A DNA stretch of 64,000 bases from a virus. The notes below the pieces were generated by a model. It was not told the DNA's origin. It did no database searches and was given only the letters and a program-made list of their open reading frames with translations. The translations under genes were made by a program, and so were the position numbers. The stretch is from IMG/VR virus record IMGVR_UViG_3300043464_002284, positions 62,001-126,000 of that record; one strand, given 5' to 3'. Each line of letters begins with the position of its first letter. The stretch's first letter is position 1. Shown here in pieces: positions 19,201-38,970 of this stretch.

Positions 19201-22200
19201 TTATGCGTCACCTGTTCTATCCATCCATTGTTTCTTTGAGTCTTGTCTTGCTCCTTCTCGACCCATTTGTCCAGCAGACTGGGCTATTGGCATCATACCA
19301 GCCAAACTTTGTTCGATAACTTGATTAGCATTGCCAATATTAACATTACCTCCAAGAGTTAGCGTAGGTTGGGCATTTGCGATGTCTTGTCCAGCAGATG
19401 ATATTGTATTAGCGCCTTCTACCACTCTTGATGCTCCTTGATTAAATACGGCCCCGCTCTGTTCAAGTCTACTAGCAAATTCATCAACCCAGGCCGGTTT
19501 AGCCATAACTGGCTGACTCTGATTTGCTGATGTACTGGTTAATACACCGCTCTGAGACGACATATTAGTTATATTATTATTAACCATTCCAGCGTCTTTC
19601 AGATACTTAGGTTGAACAATTCCTCCATCGGCCAGATACTTTACTACTCCTCCATGAGCATAATGGCCACTATTAATAGCATTTAATACTGGCATAAATC
19701 TCTGGGCTGATTGGCGATTAACAACAAATTCTCCGGGTGTTAGCATTGCTGGAACACTATCGCTACCAAACTGTTTAGCTTCTATTAGGGCTCCATTACT
19801 AGCATAAACTATACCTCCAGAAGCTTTGTTTTGTGGTGTTTTTTCTTTGTTTGGGAATGCATAGTTATAGCCAGCTGGTAATCCTGCTCCTGTCGCCAAG
19901 GTAGTCAAGCCTTTTTTGGTTCCTAGCACAGAACCAAGAAACCTAGAAACTGGTCGAACTAGTGGTACATTATCTCCAATAAATTGTCCATAACTTGCTA
20001 CTTTTTCTGCTGTCTCTTTTGATAATTTACCTCCTCCTAACTTAACACCTCCTACTGTAACTTCTCCAGAAGATATGCTATCCAACCAAGCTGCAACTTT
20101 TTTACCAGCTACACGAGCATTTGTTTTTGTCTTTGGTGTCTTTGCTGCTGCTGTTGTCACTTTTGGTACTGTTGCCGTCTTTGCTGCTGTTGCCGTTGTT
20201 GGGGTTGCTGGAGAAGGGACGGGTATTGTTGTTGCTCCTGTCGTGGAAGTAACAGAAGATGGTACTGGTTGACTAAGAAATGTTGGGGAAAGATCAGCAG
20301 GTAATTCTATAGGAGCACCAAATGGCTGGTCATTGCTCATAAGGTTTCTGGTCTGTAATTCATTTAACTGAGTCGTAGTAGGGCCTGATGGTGGCTGTGA
20401 AGCACCATTCCATGATGACGGCTTTGTAGGATTATTAAATCCTGTTGGACTTGTACCTACTAGTCTGGTTCCGTTACCTCCTGTTGGAATATCCATCAAT
20501 GTTGTTGGTTGCTGAACAGCAGATGGTGAGGTTACTGGGGGTTTTGGTGGAAATTCTCCTACTATTGATCGACTAAGTCCTTGGTATTCAGGTTTTCCAT
20601 TTAATACATTATCAACTCTGCGATTATTATATGCAAATTTATTATTCTCTGTGGTACTAAATTTTCTTACATTAGGCTTGCTAGTGAATAATCCAAAACC
20701 AATTTCTTCGAAAGCTGCCATAGTAGCTGCTGTATATGTTGTCTGAGACAAGTTTTCTGCTCTTTCGTAACTTGTTCCTAGGCCAGGAGCTAAATCTTCA
20801 GCTTGTTCTTTTTGTTTTTGGAAAGTAGTATCAAATTGTTGTTGTTGAGCTTGTTGTTGAGTAGCATAAAAGGTTGACTGAGGAGAACTTTCTCCATAAG
20901 TCATAGCTAGGGCTGGATCTACTATATTTTTACCAACTCCTCTCGCTGCTCCTAGCTGAACTTGAGTAAGTCCTAAATTGGCTGTTTCGAGAGCGGAATC
21001 TCCAAAAGCTCGTAACATAGCTTGTCCTTCGGACCCTGGTAGCGTAATCGCTGATGCTCCATGAGCTATGACTCCAACAGTTGTGCCTGCTGCTGCTTTA
21101 GCAGTTCCGGTAACAACCTCTCCTGTTCCTATGGCTGTTTCTTTTGCTCTGTCTGCATAAGCACTAGATTCTTTAGTCAAAACTGTTCCTAATGTTGCTC
21201 CTTCTTCAAAAGCTCCGGGTAAAGACTCAACATATTGTGAACTACCTAGCAATGGGAGACTCTGATTTCTCATATCCATCATTTTTGCGGCAGTAGAATC
21301 GGTCTTTGCCTTGGTAGGTATTTCAACATCTGTCTCATAACCTCTTGGTATAACTTCTCTTTGCTGTACTGGAACACCTAAAGATTTCTGAAAATAATCT
21401 AATCTTGCATAATCTTTTGCGCCCATCCCTTTCTGCGCGCGTTTTCTTAATCTTAGATATTCTTTTTGTTCTGTTTCGGGCAGTTCCATGTATGCTACTT
21501 GTGCTTTGTCTCCAACATTGCCTCCAAAAATATTCTGATCTGCTCCTATCAATTTTCTTTTTTCGTCTTCGGCTAATCTAGCATCAGCACCTAAGGCTTC
21601 TCTGTTTTCTTTTAATTTTTTGTCCATCTCTGGTCCACTACCAGATCTAAGAACAGTAGCAGCTCCAGCGACGGTTTCGGTAATAGGTAATACAACTCCA
21701 GTCATTACCTGGTCGGCAGCTTTATCTATTGCTCCAGGCAATCCAGGAGCATATGGTCCTTTTACTTCTCTATCTTTTTCTTTCTTTGCTTGTTTATCTT
21801 TATATTCTGGACTTTGAGTATAATGTGTGGAGGGGGCAGCTGCATCCTTCCATTGTCTACGAGAATATGTTGGATCTCTATCCATTAATTCTTTTTCTAT
21901 AGCTCTTCTAAAATCTTCTGTTTTCCATCTTTCTTTTGTCGGCGTTCCAGATTTCATTAATCTACGATAAGCAGAATCATAAGCATTAACATCCCAAGCT
22001 CCTTCTCTAGCTATAGTCTCCAAAAGTTTTTCTTTTCTCATTTCCGCTCTATCTGCGTATGCCAAATCTAATTGGCGTTGTCTTTCTCTCTGTAGACCAG
22101 CAGCTGTTGGTGTTGGTCCTCTATAGGTCGTAGAATCTGTGGCTGGTGCGGGTTTTACTTCTTTTTGTTCTGTAGCTTCTTTTTCTTTCTTTGTGTCTGA

Positions 22201-25200
22201 TGCTTCTTGATTAGGCGTGGGTGTTACTGGCACAGGTACTGTGGCACTGGTTCTGGATTCAACTCTTGAGGCATTTTCTGTTTCTTTAGTGGTCTCAGCT
22301 TCGTTTTTAGCTGTGGCTGTTGTTGGAGTGGTATTTCTTCCTAGTGCTTTGTCCAATAAATCTTTAACCATAGAACCAGCTTTAGCGATATATGCTTTTC
22401 CATTTTGAGCGAGGTGCTTGCCAAGTTCCTGATCTCTGGTTAACATTGCTAGTTGTGCTTTTATGTTTTCCTCAGAAGCTTTAGTTTTTGCTTCATGTCT
22501 AGCTAAGAACGCTACGTCTTGTGGAGATAATGAGTCTTCGCCTTTTAATTTTAGTCTATCTTTTAATGTTTCATATTTCTTATTATTTATCTGAGTCATC
22601 GCCCGCTCTCTGATAGCATACATATCAGGAGACATTAATTGTTTAGCCATTTCTTCTTTTTTATCAGGATCAGAAATAGTTCCTAAAATTCTTCTGTCTT
22701 TCATGGACAAAGATCTAAGACTTCTAGTTACATCTGCTGAATTTCTCTCAGTATCGCTTATTTTACCATCAAGATTAGGATCATAATTAACTCCGTCAAT
22801 AGTTGAGCTGGCTAAGGCTTCCATACTAGATTGGTATGAATTTGCCATGCTTTGTTGAGCCATCATATTCGCTTCACCAACAGGATATCCTTGTCTTAAA
22901 GCATTTTCTCTGGCACGAAAACCCTCTCTACGAGCAGCTGCAATTGCATCTCTCTGCTGTTTCCTTTCTCTATATTCGTCTTGTCTCTGTTCCTTGGCTT
23001 GTGCAAGATATTCCTCTCTTGCTGCTTTTCTTTGCTGAAATTGCGCTTGTCTTTCTTCTTTAGTCTGTTGTTGAGCCATACCACCACCAGCTAAATAAAC
23101 CACACCACCTTCACTAAAACCCTTAATTCCTCCATTGTTAATGGCTTCTAGTAGGGGAAGATGCTCTTGTGTGGCTCGTCTGTTTATAACAAATTCGCCA
23201 GGGGTAAGCATTGCAGGAACAGTGTCAGTACCCCTAGGCTCAAAATTAACTAAGGTTCCTTGTGAAGCATAGATCATACCTCCGGTTTGTCTATATAAAG
23301 GGGCCTTGTCTTTATAGTAATCAAAGTCTGGTAAATCAGTATTAAATTTTTCTTTTCCTCCAATGTGCTTATATCCTGCGCTAGCATCTTGATATAAAGC
23401 ATCGTTCTTTACGGCTTCTAGTTCGGTTAATCTGGTATCATAAGATTTTGGTTCGCCAGAAGCGGCGTCAGTAACATCTGCTGTGCCCTGTTCTGTTAAA
23501 TAGTCAGAACCAAGCCATCCACCGCGTCCTCCACCATACCAGCTCTGCAAATCAGTTAAAGCAGTACCAAACATGGCTCCGGTTTGAGGACCAAATAATA
23601 ATGAGTTTGTACCAGGATCTCTTGCTGTTGGTACAGCACTAATGAATTCTTGAATTAGCCCTTTTCTAGAATCTCTATTAGGAAATTCATTATATGGATT
23701 AATGGCTAGATTAAATAGTTCTTGATAAGTTTTAGGTAACTGTTCTGGACTTATTTCTTTAGTCTCATTGGAGCTAGAACCATCATTATTGATTTTAACT
23801 CCCTTTAGCTCGTTTTCTCTTTGTCTTTTTTGGTCTTTGGTAAATTGTTCAGTACCAACACCTGCCATTCTAACACCCATACCCAAAGACTGGAAAAGCT
23901 CGATTGCTTTTCTATTCATTGCAGGATCGCCTTGAGGAGTTTGATTTTGGAAATCTGCTTTACCAAAAAGACCCATTAAGGAACTAGTATCTCCATCAGA
24001 AATAGCTTTGAATGCGTTAGTTGCTCCATACAGATTAGTTAATCCTGCAACTGCTTGATCTCTATAGGAGTCGGGAATTCTGCTCATTACCTGATTTATT
24101 CTTTGTACTTTGCTATCAAACACCTGGGATAAATTACCCATGTATGCTCTTAAAGTACCCAAGTCTACATCATATATGCTCTTATACTGACTATCAAGAG
24201 TAGGATGAAACCATCCATTACCAAGAATGTCTGGTAACTCAAATTGACCACCAGAGCTAAATAAGCTTTGAGCACCCAGTATCATAGCCAAAGAAGCACC
24301 AGGATATTGTTTATCCTCTAACGATTCTGCATCGTTTGTGCTATTCTTCATTTTCTTCTTGGCTTGATCTTTAGAGTCCTTATTTAATTTACTACTAATT
24401 GCTTTAGCAGACGATCTTAGGTAGTCTCCTATTCTCAATGAAATTGTACCGTTATAAGCTTCTCTGAAAGAAGTAAAATCTCCGAACGCTGTGGGCTTAA
24501 GGAAATCTGCTCTTATATCTACTGTTTTGTCATTTATTCCTGTTTCCAGTGCCTTTGTTCTAGAGTCTTCTATGCCGTATTGCTTTAATGAGTCAAAATA
24601 TTTATTAACAGCAGGATCAGCATTCAAAAGATCCCTAACCTGACTAATAGGCTCATTATTTTTCATCCCAGCATCTCTTATAAATAATTTGCTGGCTTTT
24701 TCTTTTAGGTTTGCAAAAACAGACAACTCACTCTCCACAGGCTGAACCCAATATACCTTTTCATTTGGAGCAATGCTTGATGAGCCACCAACACCAGCAC
24801 TATTAGTATATTCTAAGTATGATAAATCGTATGGTAATTTTACATCTGGTTGTTGTAGTAAAATTTTGCCAGTATTTTGTTTACTAGATCCTACTCCACC
24901 TAGCTTGTCTTTATTCTGTTCGACCTCTGCGTTCATGGCCTTTTGAGCTGATTCTGCAAATTCAAAATCTCCTCCGCCTATCCAAGCAAATTCTTTAGTT
25001 GGTCCAGTTAGTAGTCCATTTTCTTCTGGGGTAATATTAATGGCTCTCTTAGCTGGGTCTTTACCGAAATATTCTAAATCTCTAAATTTGTCGGTATGTT
25101 TGGTCATGTCTTCAATATCTTTAATATACTTATTATTCCAATTATCTAAAGAAGTACTATAAACTACTAATGCGTCTTCTGATGTGAAAGGCTCTAAATC

Positions 25201-28200
25201 TATAGAGTCTCCCTTAAATACTTCTGATACTATTGTTCCTTTGTATATCTTGTCTAGTTTAGCATAGAATGATGCCGCTTCTATATCTTTATCAGACTTA
25301 CTCTTTGCCTGATCTGTAAGAAGATTCTTTTTGGCCGTTTTTACACGATCAAATATCTGGAAAAGTCTATTTACATAATCTTGTTGATCTGTTATCGGTA
25401 AAGCAAATGGGTTTACGCCAAGAGAAGCTCTTATAGAAGACATTTTTGAAGAAGTTTCGCCAACATTAGAAGCAAATAAACTTTTATAAATACCACCCTC
25501 TATATAATAGTCTGGAAGACTTTGCTGATTAACGTCCTTATCAATATCTCCATAGAACGGACCAAATTTAGCATCAGATAGCGAATGAGCCAAAGAATCA
25601 AATTGAAGCTGAGCTGTATATCCTCCAGCTGTAGTATTAGTAACAGTGACCTTGGGTTTAAAATTACCACTAAGCTGTTTGGCTTTTTGCATGGTCGGAT
25701 AAAAAATGGGACCATCGCCCATATTGTAGAAATCGTCCTTAACCTCAAAAGAAGAAGGCAAGTTAGATTCCAGCTCCTCTAGTCTCTTCTGGTATGCTTC
25801 TATCTTATTCTTTTCTATTTCTTTACTTTGTTGTCTTAATACATCCGCTTCAGCATTATCGGCATCAACAACAGTCATCATACTAACTGGTCTTACAGAC
25901 CCAGGCGATCCAGAAGACGACGAATAAAGCCTATTATCCGCACCTCCAGAAACTCGAAGTGTTTTAGTAGTAGCAGATATTGGCTGTCCTGCTCCTAACA
26001 TATAACTATCTGTAGAAAATTCTTTAGAGCTTCCTTTTTTGTATGAGAAAGAATTATTAGCAAGTTCCGAAAGAGGGAATGATTGTTTGGTTTGGAAAAA
26101 TGGCATAACCTGAACATTATCATATCCAATCATCATTTTGGTGTTATTCCATGTTCCAAGTACCGGGTATTCTTTATCTGTTACTGTTGTACCAGAAGAA
26201 CCAAAATCAGATTTAGAAATATTGGAGACATACCCACCATCAGCATAATAACTTGTTTTACCACTATTAATACTATGTAATAATCCTAAATTGTTTGCTG
26301 TTGCTGTTCTATTAACAACAAATTCGCCAGGAGTTAACATAGCAGGAACGGTATCTGTTCCCTGTGGCTTGAAATCAACCATAGTGCCAGCAGCTGCGTA
26401 TATTACTCCTCCTAATGCTTTTGGTTCAGCAACTGTTACTGGAGCGCGAACGCCTTTGGCAATATCGTCTAATTGTTCTTTATTAAAATTAAGAGTTACG
26501 CCAGTTAAGGCAGTCTTAATCGCATCCGCTGTTGTCTTAGCAATATCATTAGCTAGTTCACTATTAATTTGAGCTAGCATCTCGTTAGCTTGAGTTTGAA
26601 CATCAATAGCTTGTTGATAAACTTTAATAGCTTGCTGGGTTTCATTATCAGATTCAGGATTGCGCAAGGCGTTGAGTATTTCTTTAAATTGAGTACTGAC
26701 TCCCACACCACTATCTTTTAACATGGACTCTAATACATTAGCTTTGATATTATTAGCTTGTTTACCGTCTCCTAATAATGGAGTAATATCATTTAGTGTG
26801 CTGAGAGTGTCTCTTCTTTCTTCTGCTGTTTGTGGTACAACTTGTCCAGCACTCATTCTTTGCAAACTAGTAAGAGACTTATTAAAGTTAAATAGCTCTT
26901 CTGGTCCACTAGTAACTAGTTTTTCAATTAGTCCTACTTTGCCCTGTTGTTTACGTTGAGCCTCTTGAATTGCGTTTAAAGCAGCTGATGCGGCAGATCC
27001 CGATTCTGCCAAAACTTTTAGTGCTGCACCAGTTTGTCTTAGTTGAACATTTGTTTGTTTTAGTGCGTTTTCATTATTAATAACGTTTTGAATAGCATTC
27101 TTATTTCCGCCAACACTCTCATTTTTAGATAATTTAACTTCTGCTTCTTGTCTTTGTCTCTGACTATTAAGATCATCCATGCGATTACGAATATCTGTTG
27201 GACTAGTTAGTCCTCCGGTCATGCCCCCAACTTTCTGGTCCCTTAATTTAGTCCCAATATCTGCTCCATAATTTTTACCCAAAGCTTGTCCTAAGCTCAT
27301 AGCTCCTTCTATAGCAATATCATTAGCTTTTCTTCTTAAATCAGCAGCTTGCATTTCCATATCAGCTGATCTATTTAATGCTTCAGCATAATTGTTTAGA
27401 TTATTTTGCCAGTTTTGTAGAGCTGCAACAGAAGCGTTTTGTGCATTTTTAGCAGAGTCGATGGCATTCTTAAGTCCGGGTATTCTGTCTGTTAATTGAT
27501 CAATATCAATCTTTTTTGTTCCTTCTTTCCTAAGATCTCCAACAGCGGAGGCTATTTCTTTAGTAAGTTGTTTTGATAGATCTTTTGGTAAAGATAATCC
27601 ACTAACTTGATCTCCTATTGACTTTTCAAGATCCATAACGATTTTAGTATCGCTAGCTCCAGGATTTTTGGATATGGTGGAGTTGATCGAAGACAATAGT
27701 GATGTTTCTAATTTTTCTCCTAATCCAGACAAACCGGATACGATTTGAGAATCAAAACCGAAAATGGATCCTGCCTTATTATTGGCTGAATCGACACGCT
27801 CTTGAGAATAAGCTTTGGGATTTTTAAGGACTTCGAGTGATTCAAGTTCGGTGTTGGTGCTATTCTTGCCACTTCCTGTCATAGCAGCAACATTAGAATC
27901 TAAAGCATTATTAAATTTTGCAAGTTCGGCATTGGTTCTATTTACAGAAGCTTCCATATTCTCAAATAGTCTCTTAAAGCTCATGGTAAAAGATCTAGAG
28001 GTTTTTTCTAGATCAGCAGCTGCTCTGGCCCTATCCGATGCTAGCATCATCTTAGATATTTCTTTATCTGCATGAGCTCTTATAATAGCTTCTTTAGCTG
28101 CTTCTCTATCTGCAGCTGTTCTGTAGGATGTAGAGTTATCGATAGCTAATATTTGTTCTTGAACAGCAATATTAGATAATGCTATATTTTTAGCGAGGCT

Positions 28201-31200: not shown

Positions 31201-34200
31201 CTTGGTCTGTGGCATTAACTGCTTTGCCATATCAGAAGGATTTGTTTTGATTCGAGCTTTTTGTTCTTCAAGCATTCTTCTTCGAGCTAAATCTTTTTCA
31301 AATTCTTCCCTGGTGAAATCCATCATCTTAGCGTATTCGTAGGCTTGTTGAAATTGACCACGACTTAAACCACTACTTTTTTCTAAATCATATACCTCTG
31401 GTCCCAACTTTTTGGAGATAACCTTATCCTTAAAAGGACTCTGAGTTGGATTTTCCATAAACTCTTTATCAACATCAACTCCTCTTGAAGGCCTACCACC
31501 AGCGCCAAATTTTTGTATTAATCCACCTAAATTATATCCTCTGTTTTTACGCCATTCTTTTTCGTCTCTGGTACGGCCTTCATAATCTCTAACTATACGA
31601 CCGTCTTTTCTTAACGCGCTTGCAATTCTATCCTCTCTGGCCATTTGTGCACCGGCGAACTTATCCTGAATAGCAGATGGGGGCGCTTTATATGGCTTTA
31701 ATAATGGGGGCATAGGAATAGAACCTTCGCCCATTCCACCAATTTGCCACTGTTCGCCATAACCCCCAGGAACAGGGATTTGTTTCATAAACTGTTCTTC
31801 AGTAAAGCCAGCTTTAATAATGTCCTCTAAATTGTACTTAAAGCCACCTCTCTGAATCAGCTTGGGGGCTTGATCTGGAGATCCCCCTTCGGACAATCTG
31901 ACCATACCACCCATAGCATATTTTTGTCTTTGAATTCCAGCACCAGCTAATAGTTCAGTTAAGGTAGAATCTAAAATCCCTTGTAAATTTTGATCCAGCT
32001 GTGGTGCTTTTTCTATTAGGGTTGTTAAGAATTCTTCTTTACCATTATCTTCCATTCTATTAATTTTTTCTTGAGTTATCCCAAACTTTTCACCTGATTG
32101 GAGTAAAGCTTCGTTTACTTTAGGATTTATTGGCCTATACTCTCTGGCTCTTTTAGCAGCTGTGCTTTGGGTATTTAAAACAGCAAGATTTTTTGTTAAA
32201 TCTTCAGGAATAGGAGTAGCACCCCTAGAAGAATCAAGATTCTGACGATAATAACTTGAAAGTACTTGACTTAAATTGTTTGACTTATAACTTCTTCCAT
32301 ATACAACATCAGCACTAGTATATCCACCTCCCGCTGTCAAGGAGTCAAAAGCATCGGCTAAATCGTCATTATCTCCAGAAAATAAAGAAGATACTCGACT
32401 TCTATATTTATCAAAACTTTCTGCTGATCTTGTTCTTAATCCTTCAAATAACTGATGGGTCATTTCATGATATAGTGTGCTATTCTTGGTATCACTGGAG
32501 TATCCCATAGAAGGAGCAAAACTAACAGTTCCACGACCAGTAGCTGAAGAAACACTATTTTGTTCAGTAAGTGCTGACTTTTCTGCTTCACGTTTTAGGT
32601 CTTTTAATCTAAAGAATCTATTTTTAAGACTATCTAACTCAATATAAGCTTTCTGAAATGCATCGCTATCAAAAGAGAAACTACCATCATCAAAAGTTTC
32701 AGTAGGAGTTTTTCTAATCTTTTTTATTTCTTTTTCTTTGGCTGTTATCAGTTTGTCTAATCCATAAACTTCTTGCTTTTCTTTTTCTCCATAGCCAAAT
32801 TTGGAAAGATCATAACCTTCGTATGGCCTAACTCCAGCTGCTCCTTTTGAGAATTCAGCGGCGGCAAACATCCCGAGACCTCCTCCTCTTTTACTTGCTC
32901 CAAAATCCAGTTGTAATGGTAGCGCCGTAGCTAAGTCTTCTTGTGGTAGTCCTACAAACTTAGCAAAATCTGACATTCTCGCAAATAAAGAGTCGCGACT
33001 AATTTTTTCTTTGAATGATGACGCAAATCTTTCTCTGTCGAACGGCTGTTGAAAAGACTCTTTTACTTTCTCATCATCAATCATTATCCTTTCATCTTTA
33101 GGATTTTTGTCCCATGCTAATTTAGCTCTTGATCTTTCACTAGCTGAATATTCTTCTTCAGCATATTTTTTTGATATTCTTGATGGAAATGTTGTTTCTC
33201 CAGTTCCAAAAACTTCTTTTGGTTTTTTGGTTTTGGCTGCTTTTGGTTTCCTGGCTTCGTCTGCTACTCCACCAGCCATAAAGTTTTGTACTTCGCCACC
33301 TTCAGCTAATGCTTTAACAACTTCTTTTTGAGTTTTTGCTTCTTTTAATTGTTTTGGCTCTGGTACTCCGTTGATAAGTCTAAAATATCTTTGAAATTCT
33401 TCGATAGCATCACTCCTACTATCGCTATTAATTGTTCTTTTAACTTCCGTGGGCATGGTTGGAGATATACCAGGAAATAGTTCAGCAGATTCTCCCAGAC
33501 CATCTGGATAGTCTATTGGTCGGGTTCTAGTACTAACATTGTCTAAGTTAGCCCATAGTCTAGCTAGAGCCTGTTCAATATATGCTCCTTCAATATTACC
33601 CTGGCCTAATGTTTCGAGTTGGTCTTTGGTAAGAGACCTTAAAGATACCGGCCCTGTTTTGGTTTTAGATGCTAATCCAGAAGCCAAGAGTTCTGATCCT
33701 TGTTCGGCATGTCTCTGAGCTGCCTTAATCTCTTCTTCGTATTTTTTACCCAAGCCTCTTTCTAAAATAGAAGCAGTAACAGAAACATCTTCGCCAGCAG
33801 CATTTTTACCCAACATCCATGTAAATGGGCCAGATAGTCTTTCGTGTCCGATTGGCAACATACCAACTAATCCAACCATTTTGGATTCTTGAATAGCCTG
33901 AGACAGCTCTTCCGTTTTAGCTCCAGTACGAGCATTGTATTGTGTTTCTAGCCATTCTTTTACAGCAATATATCCTGCTGTTTTATCTTCTGATAGTCCA
34001 GGATACGTTTGTCTCCAAACCTTTTTTACTATACCTGGATCTATAGTTTTACCTGCGAAAATACCAAATGTTGGATCAGAGGGGATTGGTAGATTTAGGA
34101 AGGCTCTAGTGATTGTCTTGGAATCTGTTGGTAATGTGCCAGAACCCTTTGGCGCTGCTAATTGTTTAGTTACATTTTGTTTAATGCTCTCTAATAGAGA

Positions 34201-37200
34201 AGATTCTGGTGCTTCCGTACCTTCTGGTAATAATGACTTTACTCTATCTCCAATATGAGATCTAGCGTCTTCTGCTGATATGGTAGCAGCCGTTGTTGCT
34301 GATCTGCGAGAAGGATCAATACCATAAATTTCAGGATAGGTGCTCGCTAATTGACGAATAATACTGTGTGATTTAGCTCCAGAAGCAGACTTCTTAAAAG
34401 CGTCTCTATCGTCTCTAATTGCTTTAACTTGTGCTGCAATCTCTGGGTGTTCTGCTTTTAGTTTTTTCGTAATATTAGTATATGGACCACCAGGAGCATT
34501 AGCCAATATATCGTCTGCTTTTTGATTAGCTAAAATTTTATTAATTTCAGCTATTTTATTAATTTCTTCTAATAAAACAGGAACCATTACTGATCTATTT
34601 TTAAGTTGAGGCTGATTGCCTTTCAGTATAGCTCCAATTTCAGGATTAACTATTTTATCAAGTTCGGCATAATTTTGACTAAATAATAATTCTCTTACTG
34701 TAGTAGCACTAATATCTTCTATTCTTGGAATATCAGTAACCTCAATTCCTGCTCTATCGTATTTTCCTAAAGCTCCCTGTTCTTTCCCAGAAGTAATAGC
34801 CATAGCTCCTTTTAGTCTAGCAAATTTTCTACGATTATTTTTACTAGGAACTTCCATGACCTTAGGGAGTATTCCGCCGGTAGGCTGAGTATCACTAGAT
34901 ATCATTGCTCCTTTAAAATTAATATCTGCTAATAATGATCTAAAATCAGCATCAAAAATACCATATCTAGCAGCATGGGCTAGACCTTCTTTTCCTTCAA
35001 CCATAGCAACATTAGGAGCTACTGAGACTAAAATGTCTTCTATCGTTGCATTTGGATTTTTAGCCATTACATTTTCTAGTAATGTATCAAAAGCTCCTCT
35101 ATGACCCCTAGTAGGAGGAGAAAAACCTCCAGTATAAAAACCTTCTGCTTGTACTATTTCTGGTAATTCATCTCCTCTTTTTCTTCTAAATCTATTTGTA
35201 AGATTACCTTGAGCATCTTCTTTTCTTCCTAGTACAACATTTTTTGATCCTAGTTCATCCATTAAAGTTGCTTGCTCTATACCAAAGTCGGTAGAAACAC
35301 CCTTTGTTCTTCCTGGTTCCCTGTCATATAATAATTTTCCAGTAATATCTCTAGAATCTTTATTATCCGCCACAAGATTTTGTTCAGCCTTAGTGTCTGA
35401 TGAGATTGTGTAGGTTCTGTCTGCGTCTCTAAGATAAGCCTCTAATTTCGCATCACTAACATTGGCTGTTATTGTTAAAACCTCATCTACATTATCTAGA
35501 TCTTGTGGGGTTATTATATGGGATCTGATGGTTTGTCGTAAAGTAGCGTTATCGTTAGCGGACACACCAGTAGCTAAACTACTCTTTCCGCTACCAGCAG
35601 CACCAGCAATAACTCTAAATTTTTTGAGGTCACCGGATTTTCTTTTTTGTACGCCTAGTTTAGCTAGTTGTATAGTATAGTCTTTGATGCTCTCTGAGCC
35701 TATTAATTTCATTCCTTCAGCAACTTTATCAGCATTAACTGTTTGTCTTAATACGTCACTATCAATAATTCCTATTCTTCTAATAGCTTTTGCTTCTCCT
35801 CCTATATCGAATTTTTGTATCATTCCACCAGAAGCTAGTTGCTGAACATCTAAATTAACTTTTTCTTTCATTAAAGAACTACCAGGACGAACAGCAGACT
35901 GACTTTGTTCTGTTTTTAAAACTTTAAATTTAGAATTTGGAGGTAATATAAATTCTTTTTCTAGATCATAGTCTGTATTTACTCGTTTATTAGTGTCTAT
36001 GCCTTTTCTCTTGGAATTAGTCAAAATAGTCAAAAGTCCTTGACGAGCAAATTCTATTGCAATAGAACTATCTGAGCTGGTAGATAAAAATCCAGGTAAT
36101 GAAAATGTTTTACCTTTTGATTCTTGCCACTTGTCCCCAACCTGGTTTTTAATAATATTGAGTCTATTTTCTCCAATACCAGAATATAATTGTTTTGGTA
36201 ATTTGTCTGTTGTTTGTTTTTTTAAATCTTTAACATTTTTTTGTTCTTCTTTAGTTAATGGAGTTCCAAGCATTAAGCTTCTATTAAGTTTCATAGAGCT
36301 TGCTTTATATGTCGATATGGCGTCAGGACTTCCACCGATACCGAATTTTTGAATAATACCGCCATCAGATTTATTTTTTTTGGGCATCGATATTAAATTA
36401 ATAATATTTTTATTACCACTAATATATTTACTATCTCCAATTGCTGATACCGCTTTTCTTGCAAAATACCCGGCTCCTTCGTCGGGTAAATTTTCGGCCT
36501 GAGATCTTCTTATTCTCATGCCTTCTTCTATAGATTTTAAATTTGTAGGAATATCTTTGAATTCCGGATATACATAAGTAATAGAACCAGGATCTTGAAA
36601 ATCGTCTCTCTCTGGTCTTGTGGTTTTGCCAAGAAATTTTGATAATTTAATTGTTTTGTTAGACTGATTGTATTTAAAACCGCTATCTGTTTGCTCTAGT
36701 CTATGAGACAGCGCCTTAAGAGCAGCGTCTCTCTCTTTAAATCCAGATTCGGGTCTAAATTTAGCGTCATATAATTTTTTCCCTTTGATCAAATCAATTG
36801 GGTAATTGGGATCTTGTTCATTTAGTCTTGTAGCACCCAATACTTGTGCTGCTATATTTTCCCAAGTCTCGAAAGATTTAGGATTATTATAAATCAAATT
36901 ATTTACATCTGAAACATCTATTAATTTTCTATCAGCTCTAAATTTTTTATCTTTTTTATTATAGACTATTTTAATAATTTTTTTGTCTGCATTAATATTA
37001 TAAAAGTCGTTTTCAAATCCAACATTAGTATTATCTTTACCTTTAATAACTGTGGTAGTGGCTGGAACACCGCCTATCTGAGTTACTATATTGCCTCCAG
37101 CATATTTATTTATACGTTTTACTTGGCTCTGCTGCGCAGCTGCCAGACCTCCTTGATTCATGGTTCTTAAATTATCTGCTCCAATACTGCTAACGGCACT

Positions 37201-38883
37201 CTTTCTCATAACAAACTCGCCAGGAGTTAATCTGGCATTAACAGAATCGCTATTTCCACTCCCAGGAACCAGACCACCAGTAGCAAAATACCTAACAGGA
37301 CCCCCTTGAGCAAATCCCCCGGATTTATTGTCTGGACCTTTCCTAATACCGGTATATAAACCAGATCCAAACTTTATAAGAGAATCTAATCCTTTTGATA
37401 TTCCCAGAACAGCTAATACTGGCAATACTCCCTTAACAGCGTCTGCTACCTTTACTATGGCCCTCACAACCTGTAAAGCTCCAGTAGCCATGTTCTGGAA
37501 TGTGTTTGAGGCACCTATCTCTCTAAATAAAGCTAAAAACTCTTCTCTGACTTTCGATATTTGGTTAGCTAAAGATAACTGTGCTTTAACAGCGTCTGTG
37601 GTCAAAGAATTCTGACCAGACTGAGCAACCGATAATGCCTGTTGGGCTGTTCCAAATTCTTGGATCAAAGGAATAACTTTACCGATCTGTCGGAATCCAC
37701 CAAGCTCTTCTACGATTCTAGAAAATTTCAAATCTCTTGGATCTATACTATTAAGACCCTTAGATAATAACTCTACTGCTTTATATGCTCCAACGAACTT
37801 TCCATTTAAATCTGTAAGATTAACACCGTATTCTTTTAGAGCATCAATAGTTCCTTCTCTTTGGACTCTGGTAAAAATCGTTCTCAAACCCGTGGCGATA
37901 GTCTCTGCGCTTTCACGGGTTGTGGCACGAACGCTCGTAAACACAGCAACGAATTCATTTAATGCCTGAGTACCTTCACTTACACCCTTACTAGCAGAAG
38001 CAAACACACCACCGGTTCTCTGAATAGCAGAAATAATATCGCTAGCTTCAACAGCAAACTTAGCAGCAACAGCATTAACAGAACCAAGAGCTTTTGTAAG
38101 ATCTCCTGCTCCAATACCGAATTGTCTCATTAATGCAATACTTCCTTCTACTGTTTCGTTCATACTATCAAATGACGGAGCTAGTGAGCTTAAAGCTAGT
38201 GCTTTTAGCGCTTTTTCTGTATCTCTAGCACTCAAGCCAGCTTGTGCTAATGTAGAAGAAACGTTCAATAATTCAGCAGAGCCTACGCCTAAATTAGTCG
38301 ATAGAGATGTTATAGTATTTTGTAAAAAGCTTAAGCCAGATGCTGATTCTCCAGTAACCTGCTGTAATCTAACTAGTTCTTTATCAAAGTCAATAAAAGC
38401 AGAAATACCTTTGCTTACTGAATTTGTAACACCAAAGATCACACTAGTAACAGCACTAAAAGCTGCAAATCTTCTTACTGCCAATCCGGCCTGTTTACCA
38501 AACTCTTCCATCTCTGACGAGGAAGTACTTATAGCTTTTGCCGTTTGAGCCTGTGATTGTCCCAACTTTTGTGTTGCTGTTATTGAAGAATTAATATTAT
38601 TTTGATAAGATGAAATTTTTGTATTTCCAACAGCAGCATTAAATTGAGCAATAGCTGTTGCTGCGCTGGTGGCACTAGCCTGTACATTTTTGAATGTTTG
38701 GTTTAAAGCTTGAAGTCCATTGTTTAATTGAGTAACATTTTTAGCAGCGTTGGCTGATATTGTCACATTGAGGTTAGCATTAATGCTTCCTATTTGTTTC
38801 TTGATATCAGCAACCACAACCCCAATATTGCTGGGGCCACGTAAATTAATTTGTGCTGTTAAGTTAAATCCATTTGCGGCCAT
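19201..38883 (-). CDS. Giant tape measure protein with embedded enzyme-like cassettes
   Basis: One uninterrupted 6,560-residue frame; ATG at 38883 is preceded by AAAGGA. Residues ~160-490 match the TP901-type tape measure core (DFDKELVRLQQVTG, GLRTIFTRVQREG). It sits between tail tube and tail-tip genes. Residues ~530-2880 contain cassettes set off by GG-rich linkers: ADP-ribosyltransferase-like (850-1015), P-loop plus HxGH nucleotidyltransferase-like (1022-1430), possible PD-(D/E)XK (1760-1820), HEMTH metallopeptidase-like (1870-2325) and GNAT-like (2605-2780). Residues 2880-4170 are long coiled coils with a hydrophobic stretch (~3375). Residues 4215-5200 are an unrecognised region. The C-terminal third is basic and low complexity. 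Six PGEF-type repeats punctuate it. At 0.15 nm per helical residue the full length would span about 1 micrometre. Tape role is confident; cargo role is inferred. Confidence 0.93.
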   Translation of the reverse strand: MAANGFNLTAQINLRGPSNIGVVVADIKKQIGSINANLNVTISANAAKNVTQLNNGLQALNQTFKNVQASATSAATAIAQFNAAVGNTKISSYQNNINSSITATQKLGQSQAQTAKAISTSSSEMEEFGKQAGLAVRRFAAFSAVTSVIFGVTNSVSKGISAFIDFDKELVRLQQVTGESASGLSFLQNTITSLSTNLGVGSAELLNVSSTLAQAGLSARDTEKALKALALSSLAPSFDSMNETVEGSIALMRQFGIGAGDLTKALGSVNAVAAKFAVEASDIISAIQRTGGVFASASKGVSEGTQALNEFVAVFTSVRATTRESAETIATGLRTIFTRVQREGTIDALKEYGVNLTDLNGKFVGAYKAVELLSKGLNSIDPRDLKFSRIVEELGGFRQIGKVIPLIQEFGTAQQALSVAQSGQNSLTTDAVKAQLSLANQISKVREEFLALFREIGASNTFQNMATGALQVVRAIVKVADAVKGVLPVLAVLGISKGLDSLIKFGSGLYTGIRKGPDNKSGGFAQGGPVRYFATGGLVPGSGNSDSVNARLTPGEFVMRKSAVSSIGADNLRTMNQGGLAAAQQSQVKRINKYAGGNIVTQIGGVPATTTVIKGKDNTNVGFENDFYNINADKKIIKIVYNKKDKKFRADRKLIDVSDVNNLIYNNPKSFETWENIAAQVLGATRLNEQDPNYPIDLIKGKKLYDAKFRPESGFKERDAALKALSHRLEQTDSGFKYNQSNKTIKLSKFLGKTTRPERDDFQDPGSITYVYPEFKDIPTNLKSIEEGMRIRRSQAENLPDEGAGYFARKAVSAIGDSKYISGNKNIINLISMPKKNKSDGGIIQKFGIGGSPDAISTYKASSMKLNRSLMLGTPLTKEEQKNVKDLKKQTTDKLPKQLYSGIGENRLNIIKNQVGDKWQESKGKTFSLPGFLSTSSDSSIAIEFARQGLLTILTNSKRKGIDTNKRVNTDYDLEKEFILPPNSKFKVLKTEQSQSAVRPGSSLMKEKVNLDVQQLASGGMIQKFDIGGEAKAIRRIGIIDSDVLRQTVNADKVAEGMKLIGSESIKDYTIQLAKLGVQKRKSGDLKKFRVIAGAAGSGKSSLATGVSANDNATLRQTIRSHIITPQDLDNVDEVLTITANVSDAKLEAYLRDADRTYTISSDTKAEQNLVADNKDSRDITGKLLYDREPGRTKGVSTDFGIEQATLMDELGSKNVVLGRKEDAQGNLTNRFRRKRGDELPEIVQAEGFYTGGFSPPTRGHRGAFDTLLENVMAKNPNATIEDILVSVAPNVAMVEGKEGLAHAARYGIFDADFRSLLADINFKGAMISSDTQPTGGILPKVMEVPSKNNRRKFARLKGAMAITSGKEQGALGKYDRAGIEVTDIPRIEDISATTVRELLFSQNYAELDKIVNPEIGAILKGNQPQLKNRSVMVPVLLEEINKIAEINKILANQKADDILANAPGGPYTNITKKLKAEHPEIAAQVKAIRDDRDAFKKSASGAKSHSIIRQLASTYPEIYGIDPSRRSATTAATISAEDARSHIGDRVKSLLPEGTEAPESSLLESIKQNVTKQLAAPKGSGTLPTDSKTITRAFLNLPIPSDPTFGIFAGKTIDPGIVKKVWRQTYPGLSEDKTAGYIAVKEWLETQYNARTGAKTEELSQAIQESKMVGLVGMLPIGHERLSGPFTWMLGKNAAGEDVSVTASILERGLGKKYEEEIKAAQRHAEQGSELLASGLASKTKTGPVSLRSLTKDQLETLGQGNIEGAYIEQALARLWANLDNVSTRTRPIDYPDGLGESAELFPGISPTMPTEVKRTINSDSRSDAIEEFQRYFRLINGVPEPKQLKEAKTQKEVVKALAEGGEVQNFMAGGVADEARKPKAAKTKKPKEVFGTGETTFPSRISKKYAEEEYSASERSRAKLAWDKNPKDERIMIDDEKVKESFQQPFDRERFASSFKEKISRDSLFARMSDFAKFVGLPQEDLATALPLQLDFGASKRGGGLGMFAAAEFSKGAAGVRPYEGYDLSKFGYGEKEKQEVYGLDKLITAKEKEIKKIRKTPTETFDDGSFSFDSDAFQKAYIELDSLKNRFFRLKDLKREAEKSALTEQNSVSSATGRGTVSFAPSMGYSSDTKNSTLYHEMTHQLFEGLRTRSAESFDKYRSRVSSLFSGDNDDLADAFDSLTAGGGYTSADVVYGRSYKSNNLSQVLSSYYRQNLDSSRGATPIPEDLTKNLAVLNTQSTAAKRAREYRPINPKVNEALLQSGEKFGITQEKINRMEDNGKEEFLTTLIEKAPQLDQNLQGILDSTLTELLAGAGIQRQKYAMGGMVRLSEGGSPDQAPKLIQRGGFKYNLEDIIKAGFTEEQFMKQIPVPGGYGEQWQIGGMGEGSIPMPPLLKPYKAPPSAIQDKFAGAQMAREDRIASALRKDGRIVRDYEGRTRDEKEWRKNRGYNLGGLIQKFGAGGRPSRGVDVDKEFMENPTQSPFKDKVISKKLGPEVYDLEKSSGLSRGQFQQAYEYAKMMDFTREEFEKDLARRRMLEEQKARIKTNPSDMAKQLMPQTKPLRPDLRALADSLRDKNNDIGYRPSALEVIAQARTDIKNARGLAIGGVAEPEQKKEKKYGKISITEDGTMINAGYFKDNTRSGYATAYKMRDNLYYVGLSSATSGYGPRLYDVLMEAATEKGAMLTSDRSMVSGDAKKVWEYYFNNRSDVKKTPLKPSEWTRNDSLIDPKLYGKEETWPPATDPAWILQSGYSKSPNLINGPDVVRPSTKPDSRAMALSYFSARTPKFASGGTVPALVSNGEAYVPPTVAKRIGYSTLNRMNQADRNGMSRFSDGGISVFKGPGTGTSDSIPVTLPVGSFIIREAATKALGFSSGGSVGIQKFATGGTATDYIISKKEEKETKTAELDTLKKQASTETGSAKVLLESKIKAVEKTLEDLDKEIETASKEFTDLSKTVDDASKAQKQRQDTLNAAQVNLVDKLKGYSFGGTKFEDLNDSQKQQVIEKAQKGDYTTSTGKDRFETENKAIRRAQGKLDTATRVKEEAETDKSAKFGDAKTTQDVKNRSLTSAELQDKRQQDDKFFEYKGRKEGTTTASYKYGLAKQLGQSAYQIQDKDQYAGRKQEMAYDLSTKRNKLSGLGNTLEQAKADVAATTAGTPEADAANTRLADATSRLDAEVEAIAKSMRDLNPTLENVDENARAVANALAAGDLDAAQKKMIESLGDVPEEAEAMKIAMQRMADQLGVDVGTLEREFGSGAGAKTLDRQKFIASREGQRFGVMAEMAPDLAKRFSESRAGKFGGNVSDFISGKGGAYSQAFAKMGGMTTLNMGIAAAPGLVQKAMGDPTSSQGAATYAGAQGAASTLGAGLQLAAKTGPFAPFVAAGAAVAALATAFKDGRNAFIEFEKNLRSQNIQRALEGTASGFEALGRDAKDLAAQRQVSEKLVTAGKEAEASTNIDQTVPKAFFVNLLDSMGIMGGGKDSVDRSKILEKEGTLAYLSSLDVFGGTSQRRAYTAAMIPEQAQTNAKQYSEIATQSKQLIEVKGRAGQTFSDVKASPEYASLAKNIALSNIAVQEQILAIDNSTSYRTAADREAAKEAIIRAHADKEISKMMLASDRARAAADLEKTSRSFTMSFKRLFENMEASVNRTNAELAKFNNALDSNVAAMTGSGKNSTNTELESLEVLKNPKAYSQERVDSANNKAGSIFGFDSQIVSGLSGLGEKLETSLLSSINSTISKNPGASDTKIVMDLEKSIGDQVSGLSLPKDLSKQLTKEIASAVGDLRKEGTKKIDIDQLTDRIPGLKNAIDSAKNAQNASVAALQNWQNNLNNYAEALNRSADMEMQAADLRRKANDIAIEGAMSLGQALGKNYGADIGTKLRDQKVGGMTGGLTSPTDIRNRMDDLNSQRQRQEAEVKLSKNESVGGNKNAIQNVINNENALKQTNVQLRQTGAALKVLAESGSAASAALNAIQEAQRKQQGKVGLIEKLVTSGPEELFNFNKSLTSLQRMSAGQVVPQTAEERRDTLSTLNDITPLLGDGKQANNIKANVLESMLKDSGVGVSTQFKEILNALRNPESDNETQQAIKVYQQAIDVQTQANEMLAQINSELANDIAKTTADAIKTALTGVTLNFNKEQLDDIAKGVRAPVTVAEPKALGGVIYAAAGTMVDFKPQGTDTVPAMLTPGEFVVNRTATANNLGLLHSINSGKTSYYADGGYVSNISKSDFGSSGTTVTDKEYPVLGTWNNTKMMIGYDNVQVMPFFQTKQSFPLSELANNSFSYKKGSSKEFSTDSYMLGAGQPISATTKTLRVSGGADNRLYSSSSGSPGSVRPVSMMTVVDADNAEADVLRQQSKEIEKNKIEAYQKRLEELESNLPSSFEVKDDFYNMGDGPIFYPTMQKAKQLSGNFKPKVTVTNTTAGGYTAQLQFDSLAHSLSDAKFGPFYGDIDKDVNQQSLPDYYIEGGIYKSLFASNVGETSSKMSSIRASLGVNPFALPITDQQDYVNRLFQIFDRVKTAKKNLLTDQAKSKSDKDIEAASFYAKLDKIYKGTIVSEVFKGDSIDLEPFTSEDALVVYSTSLDNWNNKYIKDIEDMTKHTDKFRDLEYFGKDPAKRAINITPEENGLLTGPTKEFAWIGGGDFEFAESAQKAMNAEVEQNKDKLGGVGSSKQNTGKILLQQPDVKLPYDLSYLEYTNSAGVGGSSSIAPNEKVYWVQPVESELSVFANLKEKASKLFIRDAGMKNNEPISQVRDLLNADPAVNKYFDSLKQYGIEDSRTKALETGINDKTVDIRADFLKPTAFGDFTSFREAYNGTISLRIGDYLRSSAKAISSKLNKDSKDQAKKKMKNSTNDAESLEDKQYPGASLAMILGAQSLFSSGGQFELPDILGNGWFHPTLDSQYKSIYDVDLGTLRAYMGNLSQVFDSKVQRINQVMSRIPDSYRDQAVAGLTNLYGATNAFKAISDGDTSSLMGLFGKADFQNQTPQGDPAMNRKAIELFQSLGMGVRMAGVGTEQFTKDQKRQRENELKGVKINNDGSSSNETKEISPEQLPKTYQELFNLAINPYNEFPNRDSRKGLIQEFISAVPTARDPGTNSLLFGPQTGAMFGTALTDLQSWYGGGRGGWLGSDYLTEQGTADVTDAASGEPKSYDTRLTELEAVKNDALYQDASAGYKHIGGKEKFNTDLPDFDYYKDKAPLYRQTGGMIYASQGTLVNFEPRGTDTVPAMLTPGEFVINRRATQEHLPLLEAINNGGIKGFSEGGVVYLAGGGMAQQQTKEERQAQFQQRKAAREEYLAQAKEQRQDEYRERKQQRDAIAAARREGFRARENALRQGYPVGEANMMAQQSMANSYQSSMEALASSTIDGVNYDPNLDGKISDTERNSADVTRSLRSLSMKDRRILGTISDPDKKEEMAKQLMSPDMYAIRERAMTQINNKKYETLKDRLKLKGEDSLSPQDVAFLARHEAKTKASEENIKAQLAMLTRDQELGKHLAQNGKAYIAKAGSMVKDLLDKALGRNTTPTTATAKNEAETTKETENASRVESRTSATVPVPVTPTPNQEASDTKKEKEATEQKEVKPAPATDSTTYRGPTPTAAGLQRERQRQLDLAYADRAEMRKEKLLETIAREGAWDVNAYDSAYRRLMKSGTPTKERWKTEDFRRAIEKELMDRDPTYSRRQWKDAAAPSTHYTQSPEYKDKQAKKEKDREVKGPYAPGLPGAIDKAADQVMTGVVLPITETVAGAATVLRSGSGPEMDKKLKENREALGADARLAEDEKRKLIGADQNIFGGNVGDKAQVAYMELPETEQKEYLRLRKRAQKGMGAKDYARLDYFQKSLGVPVQQREVIPRGYETDVEIPTKAKTDSTAAKMMDMRNQSLPLLGSSQYVESLPGAFEEGATLGTVLTKESSAYADRAKETAIGTGEVVTGTAKAAAGTTVGVIAHGASAITLPGSEGQAMLRAFGDSALETANLGLTQVQLGAARGVGKNIVDPALAMTYGESSPQSTFYATQQQAQQQQFDTTFQKQKEQAEDLAPGLGTSYERAENLSQTTYTAATMAAFEEIGFGLFTSKPNVRKFSTTENNKFAYNNRRVDNVLNGKPEYQGLSRSIVGEFPPKPPVTSPSAVQQPTTLMDIPTGGNGTRLVGTSPTGFNNPTKPSSWNGASQPPSGPTTTQLNELQTRNLMSNDQPFGAPIELPADLSPTFLSQPVPSSVTSTTGATTIPVPSPATPTTATAAKTATVPKVTTAAAKTPKTKTNARVAGKKVAAWLDSISSGEVTVGGVKLGGGKLSKETAEKVASYGQFIGDNVPLVRPVSRFLGSVLGTKKGLTTLATGAGLPAGYNYAFPNKEKTPQNKASGGIVYASNGALIEAKQFGSDSVPAMLTPGEFVVNRQSAQRFMPVLNAINSGHYAHGGVVKYLADGGIVQPKYLKDAGMVNNNITNMSSQSGVLTSTSANQSQPVMAKPAWVDEFASRLEQSGAVFNQGASRVVEGANTISSAGQDIANAQPTLTLGGNVNIGNANQVIEQSLAGMMPIAQSAGQMGREGARQDSKKQWMDRTGDA
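19714..19775 (-). repeat. PGEF repeat 6
   Basis: Encodes SDSVPAMLTPGEFVVNRQSA, preceded by GGIVYASNGALIEAKQFG. It lies about 180 residues from the C-terminus. Confidence 0.85.
22745..22800 (-). other. EF-hand / dockerin-like calcium loop in the tape measure (residue ~5369)
   Basis: The sequence DPNLDGKISDTE fits the DxNxDGxIxxxE calcium-binding loop exactly. Only one loop is seen, so it may be structural or fortuitous. Confidence 0.45.
23182..23245 (-). repeat. PGEF repeat 5
   Basis: Encodes TDTVPAMLTPGEFVINRRAT, preceded by GGMIYASQGTLVNFEPRG. High similarity to repeat 4 at both DNA and protein level suggests recent duplication or conversion. Confidence 0.85.
23286..26240 (-). other. Unrecognised ~1,000-residue region of the tape measure (residues ~4215-5200)
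   Basis: This region lies between two near-identical PGEF repeats. It is less coiled-coil-like than its flanks, with many Tyr, Phe, Pro and Trp residues (VPVESELSVFANL-like and GNGWFHPTLDSQ segments), so it probably includes globular folds. No motif is recognised. Confidence 0.5.
26306..26370 (-). repeat. PGEF repeat 4
   Basis: Encodes TDTVPAMLTPGEFVVNRTAT, preceded by GGVIYAAAGTMVDFKPQG. It is nearly identical to repeats 5 and 6. Confidence 0.85.
30220..30262 (-). repeat. GG-SVGIQKF-GG linker before the coiled-coil region
   Basis: Encodes GGSVGIQKFATGG (residue ~2880). It marks the change from the cassette-bearing part to the long coiled-coil part. Confidence 0.75.
30289..30345 (-). repeat. 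PGEF repeat 3 (degenerate)
   Basis: Encodes SDSIPVTLPVGSFIIREAAT, with PVGSF in place of TPGEF. It is the last repeat before the long coiled-coil region. Confidence 0.65.
30466..30515 (-). repeat. PGEF repeat 2 (degenerate)
   Basis: Encodes GGTVPALVSNGEAYVPPTVA, a diverged copy in which PGEFV has become NGEAYV. It follows the GNAT-like cassette. Confidence 0.65.
30540..31080 (-). other. GNAT acetyltransferase-like cassette (residues ~2605-2780)
   Basis: The order is GKISITEDG, YYVGLSSATSGYGPRLYDVL, then TEKGAMLTSDRSMVSGDAKK and VWEYYFNN. GYGPRLYDVLMEAA resembles the GxGxGxxL acetyl-CoA loop and helix of GNAT enzymes, and the rest fits the following strand and helix. The P-loop equivalent is degenerate, so catalytic competence is uncertain. 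Confidence 0.5.
31495..31530 (-). repeat. GG-LIQKF-GG linker
   Basis: Encodes GGLIQKFGAGG (residue ~2456). It opens a helical segment that leads to the GNAT-like cassette. Confidence 0.75.
31880..31911 (-). repeat. GG-MVRLSE-GG linker after the metallopeptidase-like cassette
   Basis: Encodes GGMVRLSEGG (residue ~2328), the most diverged member. It is followed by SPD, as after the linker at 36330. Confidence 0.6.
31911..33276 (-). other. HExxH metallopeptidase-like cassette (residues ~1870-2325)
   Basis: STLYHEMTHQLFEGL (~2131-2145) is a textbook HExxH zinc-binding helix, preceded by a GTVSFAPSMG strand and followed by DDLADAFDSLTAGGGY, which may supply the third ligand. Long flanking helices carry many charged residues. 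GG linkers lie at both ends (GGEVQNFMAGG and GGMVRLSEGG). HExxH metallopeptidases are common modules of phage polyvalent proteins. Confidence 0.65.
33270..33303 (-). repeat. GG-EVQNF-GG linker before the metallopeptidase-like cassette
   Basis: Encodes GGEVQNFMAGG (residue ~1866). The hydrophobic-Q-x-F core is kept. Confidence 0.7.
33430..33603 (-). other. Possible PD-(D/E)XK nuclease motif (residues ~1762-1818)
   Basis: GAYIEQALARLW is an N-terminal acidic helix, followed by RPIDYPDG and then PTEVKRT. The E...D...ExK order and spacing fit the PD-(D/E)XK nuclease fold. These motifs are short and common, so this is only a suggestion. Confidence 0.3.
34594..35820 (-). other. P-loop kinase-like plus HxGH nucleotidyltransferase-like cassette (residues ~1022-1430)
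   Basis: A Walker A motif, GAAGSGKSS (~1093), follows strand FRVIA. About 160 residues later comes GGFSPPTRGH (~1254), the nucleotide-binding motif of the cytidylyltransferase/NMNAT superfamily, here (T)RGH. About 140 residues further on is ISATTVRELL (~1393), the ISSTxxR motif of the same fold. Two signature motifs in the right order make the nucleotidyltransferase call fairly firm. The substrate is unknown. A Walker B residue was not assigned. Confidence 0.68.
35797..35830 (-). repeat. GG-MIQKF-GG linker between ART-like and kinase/nucleotidyltransferase-like cassettes
   Basis: Encodes GGMIQKFDIGG (residue ~1021), nearly the same as the linker 500 bases upstream in the reading direction. 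Confidence 0.75.
35839..36336 (-). other. ADP-ribosyltransferase-like cassette (residues ~850-1015)
   Basis: Visible motifs are LYSGIGENR (~899), a PGFLSTSSDSSIA segment (~930) matching the STS motif, and DLEKEFILPPNSKFKV (~975) matching the ExE signature and following strand of R-S-E clade ARTs. The first-position Arg of the usual LYRG motif is Ser here, so activity is uncertain. The cassette is bracketed by two GG-IQKF-GG linkers. Known relatives transfer ADP-ribose from NAD to host proteins, and virion-borne phage ARTs are well established (T4 Alt). Confidence 0.7.
36330..36363 (-). repeat. GG-IIQKF-GG linker upstream of the ART-like cassette
   Basis: Encodes GGIIQKFGIGG (residue ~846), one of a family of short linkers that mark cassette boundaries. 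The other clear members are at 35797-35830, 33270-33303, 31880-31911, 31495-31530 and 30220-30262. Confidence 0.75.
37200..37262 (-). repeat. PGEF repeat 1 of the tape measure
   Basis: Encodes SDSVNARLTPGEFVMRKSAV, the first of six related segments. It is preceded by GGLVPGSGN, and GGPVRYFATGG lies just before that. This motif type recurs in tape measures of many siphoviruses. Confidence 0.8.
37414..38406 (-). other. TP901-type tape measure core domain (residues ~160-490)
   Basis: The segment contains the conserved helical core seen in siphovirus tape measures: an FDKELVRLQQVTG start, LSTNLGVGSAELLNVSSTLA, AAKFAVEASDIISAIQRTGG, RATTRESAETIATGLRTIF and LGGFRQIGKVIPL. It ends in a hydrophobic VKGVLPVLAVLGISKG stretch. 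This is the main evidence that the gene is a tape measure. Confidence 0.88.
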
Positions 38884-38897
38884 TAATTATCCTTTGT

Positions 38898-38934: not shown

Positions 38935-38970
38935 CTCTTAGGAAAAAGAACAGATATAAAGTTTACCAAA

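Follow-up and report, generated by a model that had tools for sequence, protein, structure and literature searches.

A giant cysteine-free phage tape measure protein with a cargo zone of exchangeable enzyme-like cassettes

Tape measure proteins, generally present in long-tailed phages, are currently viewed as rulers and membrane conduits. A single reading frame of nearly 20 kb raises the question of whether such a protein may also bring enzymes into the host cell. The frame lies in a 64,000-nucleotide stretch of viral DNA (here, the window) that corresponds to bases 62001-126000 of the 237,915-bp virus record IMGVR_UViG_3300043464_002284. The original prediction, made from this sequence, described a 6,560-residue tape measure protein with ADP-ribosyltransferase (ART)-, kinase/nucleotidyltransferase-, metallopeptidase-, and GNAT-like modules and proposed that it is an effector package delivered with the virion. 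Our analysis supports that interpretation and adds what it had not covered: two PD-(D/E)XK-like domains, a linker system, and a total absence of Cys. We hold it to be quite probable that this is a modular tape measure delivering polyvalent effectors via the tail, and we infer both the delivery and the enzyme activities. The features that bear on this reading are listed below, with window coordinates and amino acid (aa) positions in the protein.

19201..38883, minus strand: tape measure protein frame, 6,560 aa; a single open reading frame (ORF) from ATG to stop with zero Cys
37414..38433, minus strand: N-terminal tape measure core of the TP901 family, aa 151-490 (TIGR01760, 6.9e-28; PF10145, 3.2e-22)
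36649..36903, minus strand: PD-(D/E)XK-like nuclease cassette 1, aa 661-745, with E675, P695-x-D697, and D706-x-K708 (motif only)
35911..36225, minus strand: ART-like cassette, aa 887-991, with STS at 934-936 and ExE at 975-977 (PF03496)
35152..35787, minus strand: P-loop kinase cassette, aa 1033-1244, with Walker A at 1094-1101 (alignments, model, and zeta-toxin fold matches)
34570..35142, minus strand: HIGH-superfamily nucleotidyltransferase cassette, aa 1248-1438, with TxGH at 1258-1261 and ISxT..R at 1391-1397 (profile and fold)
33382..33612, minus strand: PD-(D/E)XK-like cassette 2, aa 1758-1834, with D1791 ... TEVKR (motif only)
32284..32676, minus strand: HExxH zincin-like metallopeptidase cassette, aa 2070-2200, with HExxH at 2139-2143 (motif; the model is poor here)
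30580..31041, minus strand: GNAT acetyltransferase-like cassette, aa 2615-2768, with GYG at 2666-2668 (model, Foldseek, and alignment)

The same frame is present in a second record, G001, with 0 mismatches across 21,109 bases. Because G001 may derive from the same sample or population as the window record, the wider family is the stronger control, and there relatives with a core identity of 50 to 71% have single uninterrupted frames of 3,071 to 7,794 aa. An assembly or annotation join of a tape measure gene to enzyme genes, which the original prediction had named as a way in which it could fail, is ruled out by these uninterrupted frames, conserved in dozens of records from different metagenomes. 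As the order of the cassettes also differs between the same core and helical regions, we regard the chance of such an artefact as negligible. Relatives were collected by IMG/VR searches, one core-alignment scan yielding 368 encoding loci, from which 80 were retained; counts of modularity were obtained with local profiles on 93 dereplicated frames.

The 6,560-aa protein is laid out as a TP901-type core (aa 151-490), a cargo zone (approximately aa 590-2790), and a helical region. Besides the two family profiles listed above, several tape measure PHROGs match the core, and from these matches the protein is firmly predicted to be a tape measure. It belongs to a structural gene block, with genes on the same strand for the terminase large subunit (57267-59300), the portal (55006-57210), and a tube-like protein (41410-42483), the last assigned by reading only.

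We assign six enzyme-like units to the cargo zone: a PD-(D/E)XK-like nuclease, an ART, a P-loop kinase together with a HIGH-superfamily adenylyltransferase, a second PD-(D/E)XK-like nuclease, an HExxH zincin, and a GNAT. Several enzymatic domains thus share one polypeptide, as is characteristic of polyvalent proteins. No enzyme-like unit was recognized in aa 2321-2600 of the cargo or in the parts past aa 4230. The kinase and nucleotidyltransferase, which co-occur in 27/27 frames, were modeled with high confidence (predicted local distance difference test [pLDDT] mostly 85-98). In the kinase, the Walker A lysine is invariant in the alignment, and fold matches are zeta-toxin-like (probability, 0.69-0.80). 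The nucleotidyltransferase has the Rossmann-like fold and the (T/H)xGH and ISxTxxR motifs that define the HIGH superfamily; its profile matches MJ0951 (2.3e-5), NaMNAT (3.6e-4), and NMNAT (7.5e-4) in the PDB, its fold search ranks NadM first (probability, 1.00; E, 1.3e-3), and PF16581 matches the corresponding cassettes of three relatives. The GNAT cassette was likewise modeled with confidence (pLDDT mostly 86-97); the top six Foldseek matches all have the acetyltransferase fold (probability, 0.96; E, >0.001), and the GxG loop for acetyl-CoA is present. The predicted structures therefore contain alpha/beta enzyme folds and not only the helical bundles that would have counted against the original prediction.

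The other cassettes were recognized from sequence profiles or motifs. The ART cassette matches PF03496 (E, 2.1e-6; 27.6 bits against a cut-off of 23.4), and in the alignment its ExE motif is conserved and STS is mostly kept; T4-type ART PHROGs (Alt) give a weak profile match to this cassette in some family members. Since the position of the first-motif Arg is occupied by Ser, Thr, or Ala, ART activity is uncertain. The predicted metallopeptidase is borne out at the level of its motif, as HExxH is kept in 17/17 relatives at identities down to 44%, although the zincin is found in only 17/93 frames. The PD-(D/E)XK motif is conserved in cassette 1, where E, P, D, and K are invariant or nearly so among 15 family members, and mostly conserved in cassette 2, for which local profiles gave 45 matches among the family frames searched; a fold search gave no match. 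Relatives carry, in addition, a cassette resembling HAD phosphatases, in which DxDxT, Lys, and DD motifs are present. Sequence searches of the PDB with single slices returned nothing useful, and searches with cassette profiles were useful for the nucleotidyltransferase only, with the kinase giving Walker A matches alone and the HAD, zincin, and nuclease 1 profiles finding no convincing structural relative.

How such cassettes are distributed can be read from the family, in which 20 complete tape measures span 3,071-7,794 aa. At least one cassette is present in 79/93 frames and at least three kinds in 45/93, in about 38 combinations, some of these frames having been found through cassette searches; among frames selected solely by their core and showing 2,500 or more residues, the counts are 31/33 and 17/33. 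Every one of the 243 cassettes counted is C-terminal of the core, no more than 2,270 residues away, and a protein has up to seven. Their order varies between the same core and helical regions: KIN precedes ZNMP in eight cases and follows it in four, while ART lies ahead of FNUC in five and behind it in six.

Comparison of individual relatives reveals that the cassettes have a history of their own. G022 and G023 share 92% identity in the core, yet only 48% in the kinase and 32% in the nucleotidyltransferase. Conversely, the cassettes of G022 are 77-99% identical to those of the window protein (G000), whereas the two cores share only 65%. The synonymous divergence (dS) between these two proteins is 0.4-0.8 for the kinase, nucleotidyltransferase, nuclease 2, and zincin and 1.2 for GNAT, compared with about 3 for the core, and the ratio of nonsynonymous to synonymous divergence (dN/dS) is 0.08-0.22 over all cassette pairs tested. 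Therefore, the cassettes are exchanged independently of the core and are held by purifying selection.

These values bear on the idea that the cassettes are decayed enzymes retained as spacers or structural modules, which would lengthen the tape or contact the tube or tail tip. Tape measure proteins tolerate changes in length, and the ART without its first-motif Arg and the nuclease 2 copies without Lys would fit decay. However, most catalytic motifs have been kept (zincin, 17/17; HAD, 39/41; nucleotidyltransferase, 26/27; kinase, 25/27), dN/dS is low, and the same set of enzymes recurs while its order changes, which together make the spacer explanation unlikely.

If the cassettes are kept as enzymes, the question becomes where they act, and here the amino acid composition is informative. 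The 6,560-aa tape measure has no Cys at all. Across the family, 318,586 residues include just 16, and among the 33,134 residues of the eight cassette families there are 0. Cys makes up 0.98% of the other window proteins; several virion proteins are lower, at 0-0.4%, and against structural proteins the contrast is smaller, still large. Two comparators are equally free of Cys, namely, the P74-26 tape measure (0/5,006) and the N4 gp50 virion RNA polymerase (0/3,500), which is an ejected enzyme. By analogy with these, Cys exclusion would mark passage through the tail tube.

This pattern also speaks to a scenario in which the cassettes are excised ahead of or in the course of tail assembly and have a late role in the producing cell, for example in host takeover or assembly, without being delivered by the virion. 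An HExxH zincin resides within the cargo, the domains are separated by linkers, and processing of a tape measure protein is known from lambda. Against this, the zincin is present in only 17/93 frames, every cassette is Cys-free, which a cytoplasmic enzyme does not need to be, and a late enzyme has no need of fusion to a tape measure. Early excision thus strikes us as rather improbable, and delivery through the tail remains the reading that we prefer.

Short linkers join the cassettes, and four of them are assigned in the window protein on the evidence of a breakpoint test.

36331..36348, minus strand: K-F-x-x-G-G linker, aa 846-851
35797..35814, minus strand: K-F-x-x-G-G linker, aa 1024-1029
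33268..33285, minus strand: N-F-x-x-G-G linker, aa 1867-1872
31495..31512, minus strand: K-F-x-x-G-G linker, aa 2458-2463

Homology breakpoints fall within 15 aa of a linker in 36/84 cases, whereas 10,000 circular shifts gave 9.3 on average and never more than 35; these counts are not phylogenetically independent. The K-F-x-x-G-G linkers look like the edges of an LTPGEFV-type repeat module that occurs elsewhere in the protein (see below). Beyond the window protein, we lean toward the view that the family has a general delivery backbone, in which swappable effectors are placed at standard linkers between the core and the helical region and threaded unfolded under a Cys-free rule.

Taken together, these are the grounds from which we infer a virion-delivered effector package: the cassettes are fused to a protein known to exit via the tail, are held by purifying selection, keep most of their catalytic motifs, are shuffled as domains, and exclude Cys. 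The tape measure, with its string of exchangeable enzyme domains joined by K-F-x-x-G-G linkers, would be laid in the tail tube at assembly. At infection it would leave the tube before the DNA, unfolded or locally unfolded, which would account for the exclusion of Cys. Once past the envelope, the domains would fold in the cytoplasm and act on host targets; their folds and motifs suggest ADP-ribosylation, acetylation, nucleotide or nicotinamide adenine dinucleotide (NAD)-type metabolism by the kinase and adenylyltransferase, and cleavage of nucleic acid. More speculatively, the zincin might separate the domains by cleavage, an idea already put forward for polyvalent proteins. Phages of the group swap cassettes by recombination, as expected for effectors under pressure from host defenses.

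The site of action could instead be the periplasm or the envelope, where the cassettes would aid passage of the tail and DNA in the manner of peptidoglycan hydrolase domains elsewhere. Peptidoglycan hydrolase motifs are known in tape measures, and a zincin could function there. ATP-, NAD-, and acetyl-CoA-dependent folds, however, are not expected to meet their substrates in the periplasm, and domain and profile scans found no muralytic domain in the tape measure protein, so we consider envelope action very unlikely.

Several observations weigh against tail delivery of active enzymes. The canonical first-motif Arg is absent from the ART, and some members have another residue in place of the nuclease 2 Lys; a portion of the cargo may therefore lack activity or have acquired a different function. 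Motifs are the sole basis for calling the zincin and the two nucleases, and no Foldseek E-value passes 1e-3, possibly owing to the long multidomain queries. Cys depletion may in part be general to virions, and the dependence among breakpoints noted above lowers the weight of that test. Removal of the cargo by processing ahead of tail assembly keeps the low probability given to it above. Finally, the family is without a cultured relative and is known from sequences alone.

The limits of the family were traced in public data. Across 50,697 deposited phage records, the only matches were to distant tape measure cores and to the LTPGEFV repeat, and the kinase-nucleotidyltransferase, GNAT, HAD with nuclease 2, and ART cassettes, searched individually, had no match at an E of 0.01 there. 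No relative of the GNAT cassette was found in 85,462 prokaryote genomes. Core relatives occur in genome bins, in metagenome-assembled genomes of many phyla, which does not reveal the host. The family looks like an uncultured phage group. Its longest tape measure, G002 (L038, L039), has 7,794 aa, nine LTPGEFV-type motifs, and two ART cassettes; to our knowledge, it exceeds any known tape measure in length. A single copy of the GNAT cassette was seen outside a tape measure frame, in a stand-alone 372-aa protein (L124:5347-6465) on a 320,934-base viral contig.

Other features of the window protein lie mostly outside the cargo zone.

37072..37329, minus strand: LTPGEFV-type repeat 1, aa ~519-604
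26224..26412, minus strand: LTPGEFV repeat 2, aa ~4158-4220
23077..23286, minus strand: LTPGEFV repeat 3, aa ~5200-5269
19615..19824, minus strand: LTPGEFV repeat 4, aa ~6354-6423
28696..28761, minus strand: hydrophobic segment in the helical tape region, aa 3375-3396; a possible membrane segment (hydropathy scan)
22747..22782, minus strand: EF-hand-like Ca-binding loop, aa 5368-5379 (pattern match)

The repeat motif DTVPAMLTPGEFVVNR (aa 519-604, 4158-4220, 5200-5269, and 6354-6423) is also found in several PHROG tape measure families, and a search of the literature for the text TPGEF turned up no paper on phages. EF-hand Pfam matches were obtained in 6/14 frames scanned, and EF-hand-like loops sit C-terminally in the tape measures of relatives. 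By arithmetic, a tape extended throughout would give a tail of about 1 µm, or 0.65 µm without the cargo.

Immediately 5' of the tape measure start is a terminator-like hairpin (38895-38945, minus strand; -18 kcal/mol; z, -3.9) with a U-run, which may tune tape measure expression. A programmed frameshift pair with an upstream 81-aa ORF (38883-39128) was considered and rejected, as the gap holds this terminator-like hairpin and the ORF looks spurious. Elsewhere in the window, a 1,833-aa protein (10848-16349) is encoded by a gene with G/C-rich short tandem repeats, collagen-like in look; ORFs 16427-17113 and 17640-19181 each terminate in a Thr-Pro-rich tail; and a protein at 48423-49697 has a major tropism determinant N-terminal domain (Mtd_N; E, 1.6e-11). 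A GDP-mannose dehydratase/epimerase-like gene (60614-61669; E, 8e-117) lies near the terminase gene, as does that of a protein resembling sigma-70 region 2 (62452-63150), whose score is just under the cut-off.

If delivery by the tail is correct, the first proteins to enter the cell would include ready-made effectors, ahead of phage gene expression, with a bearing on early takeover and anti-defense. The family, whose tape length varies 2.5-fold among relatives, is a natural test of the passage of folded domains through a tail tube and of the share of cargo in tail length. The combination of linkers with an absence of Cys is a candidate rule for spotting tail-delivered proteins elsewhere.

Among the known systems closest to this one are the polyvalent proteins encoded by phages and conjugative elements (Iyer et al. 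2017, PMC5512222), which likewise have many enzyme domains per polypeptide (ART, GNAT, and metallopeptidase), zeta-toxin-like kinases, strong shuffling, and predicted delivery with DNA; the main text of that work does not mention tape measure proteins. Injected polyvalent proteins include ART and GNAT domains (PMC7824862). Here, unlike in those proteins, the carrier is a tail ruler, and Pfam scans of the cassettes gave no match to PolyVal-named families.

The carrier itself is shared with TM4, which has a peptidoglycan hydrolase motif, and with P74-26, whose tape measure is also Cys-free. Such hydrolase motifs in tape measures were described by Piuri and Hatfull (2006, as cited in PMC13277306). 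The known additions to tape measures act on the cell wall, whereas the cassettes found here are of nucleotide, NAD, and acetyl-CoA enzyme types. P74-26 has been described as having the longest tail of any virus, close to a micron (PMC10034513); its tape measure has 5,006 aa, compared with up to 7,794 aa in the present family.

The contractile injection system effectors Tme and Sle1 (PMC13277306) resemble our protein in having a tape measure-like backbone and a functional domain that varies among natural homologues, but they belong to bacterial injection machines and have one functional domain. The present locus does not have the makeup of a bacterial injection cluster, being part of a virus record with terminase and portal nearby and no Pfam sheath match; as for a contractile tail, neither a Pfam sheath nor a T4-type tube was matched in the four records searched. 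N4 gp50 and T4 Alt are, similarly, virion-packaged and injected enzymes, the former giant and Cys-free, but they are separate proteins outside any tape measure. The MuF polymorphic toxins of temperate phages (PMC5576092) are virion-associated proteins with variable effector domains as well; their carrier, in contrast, is associated with the head and bears a C-terminal toxin domain, and the tape measure here has no Pfam match to MuF. A full-text literature search, whose coverage left out most subscription literature, found no paper on a multi-enzyme tape measure. What sets this protein apart is the combination of a tape measure with polyvalent cargo, which, if it works as proposed, would give tailed phages a previously unrecognized equivalent of modular toxin delivery.
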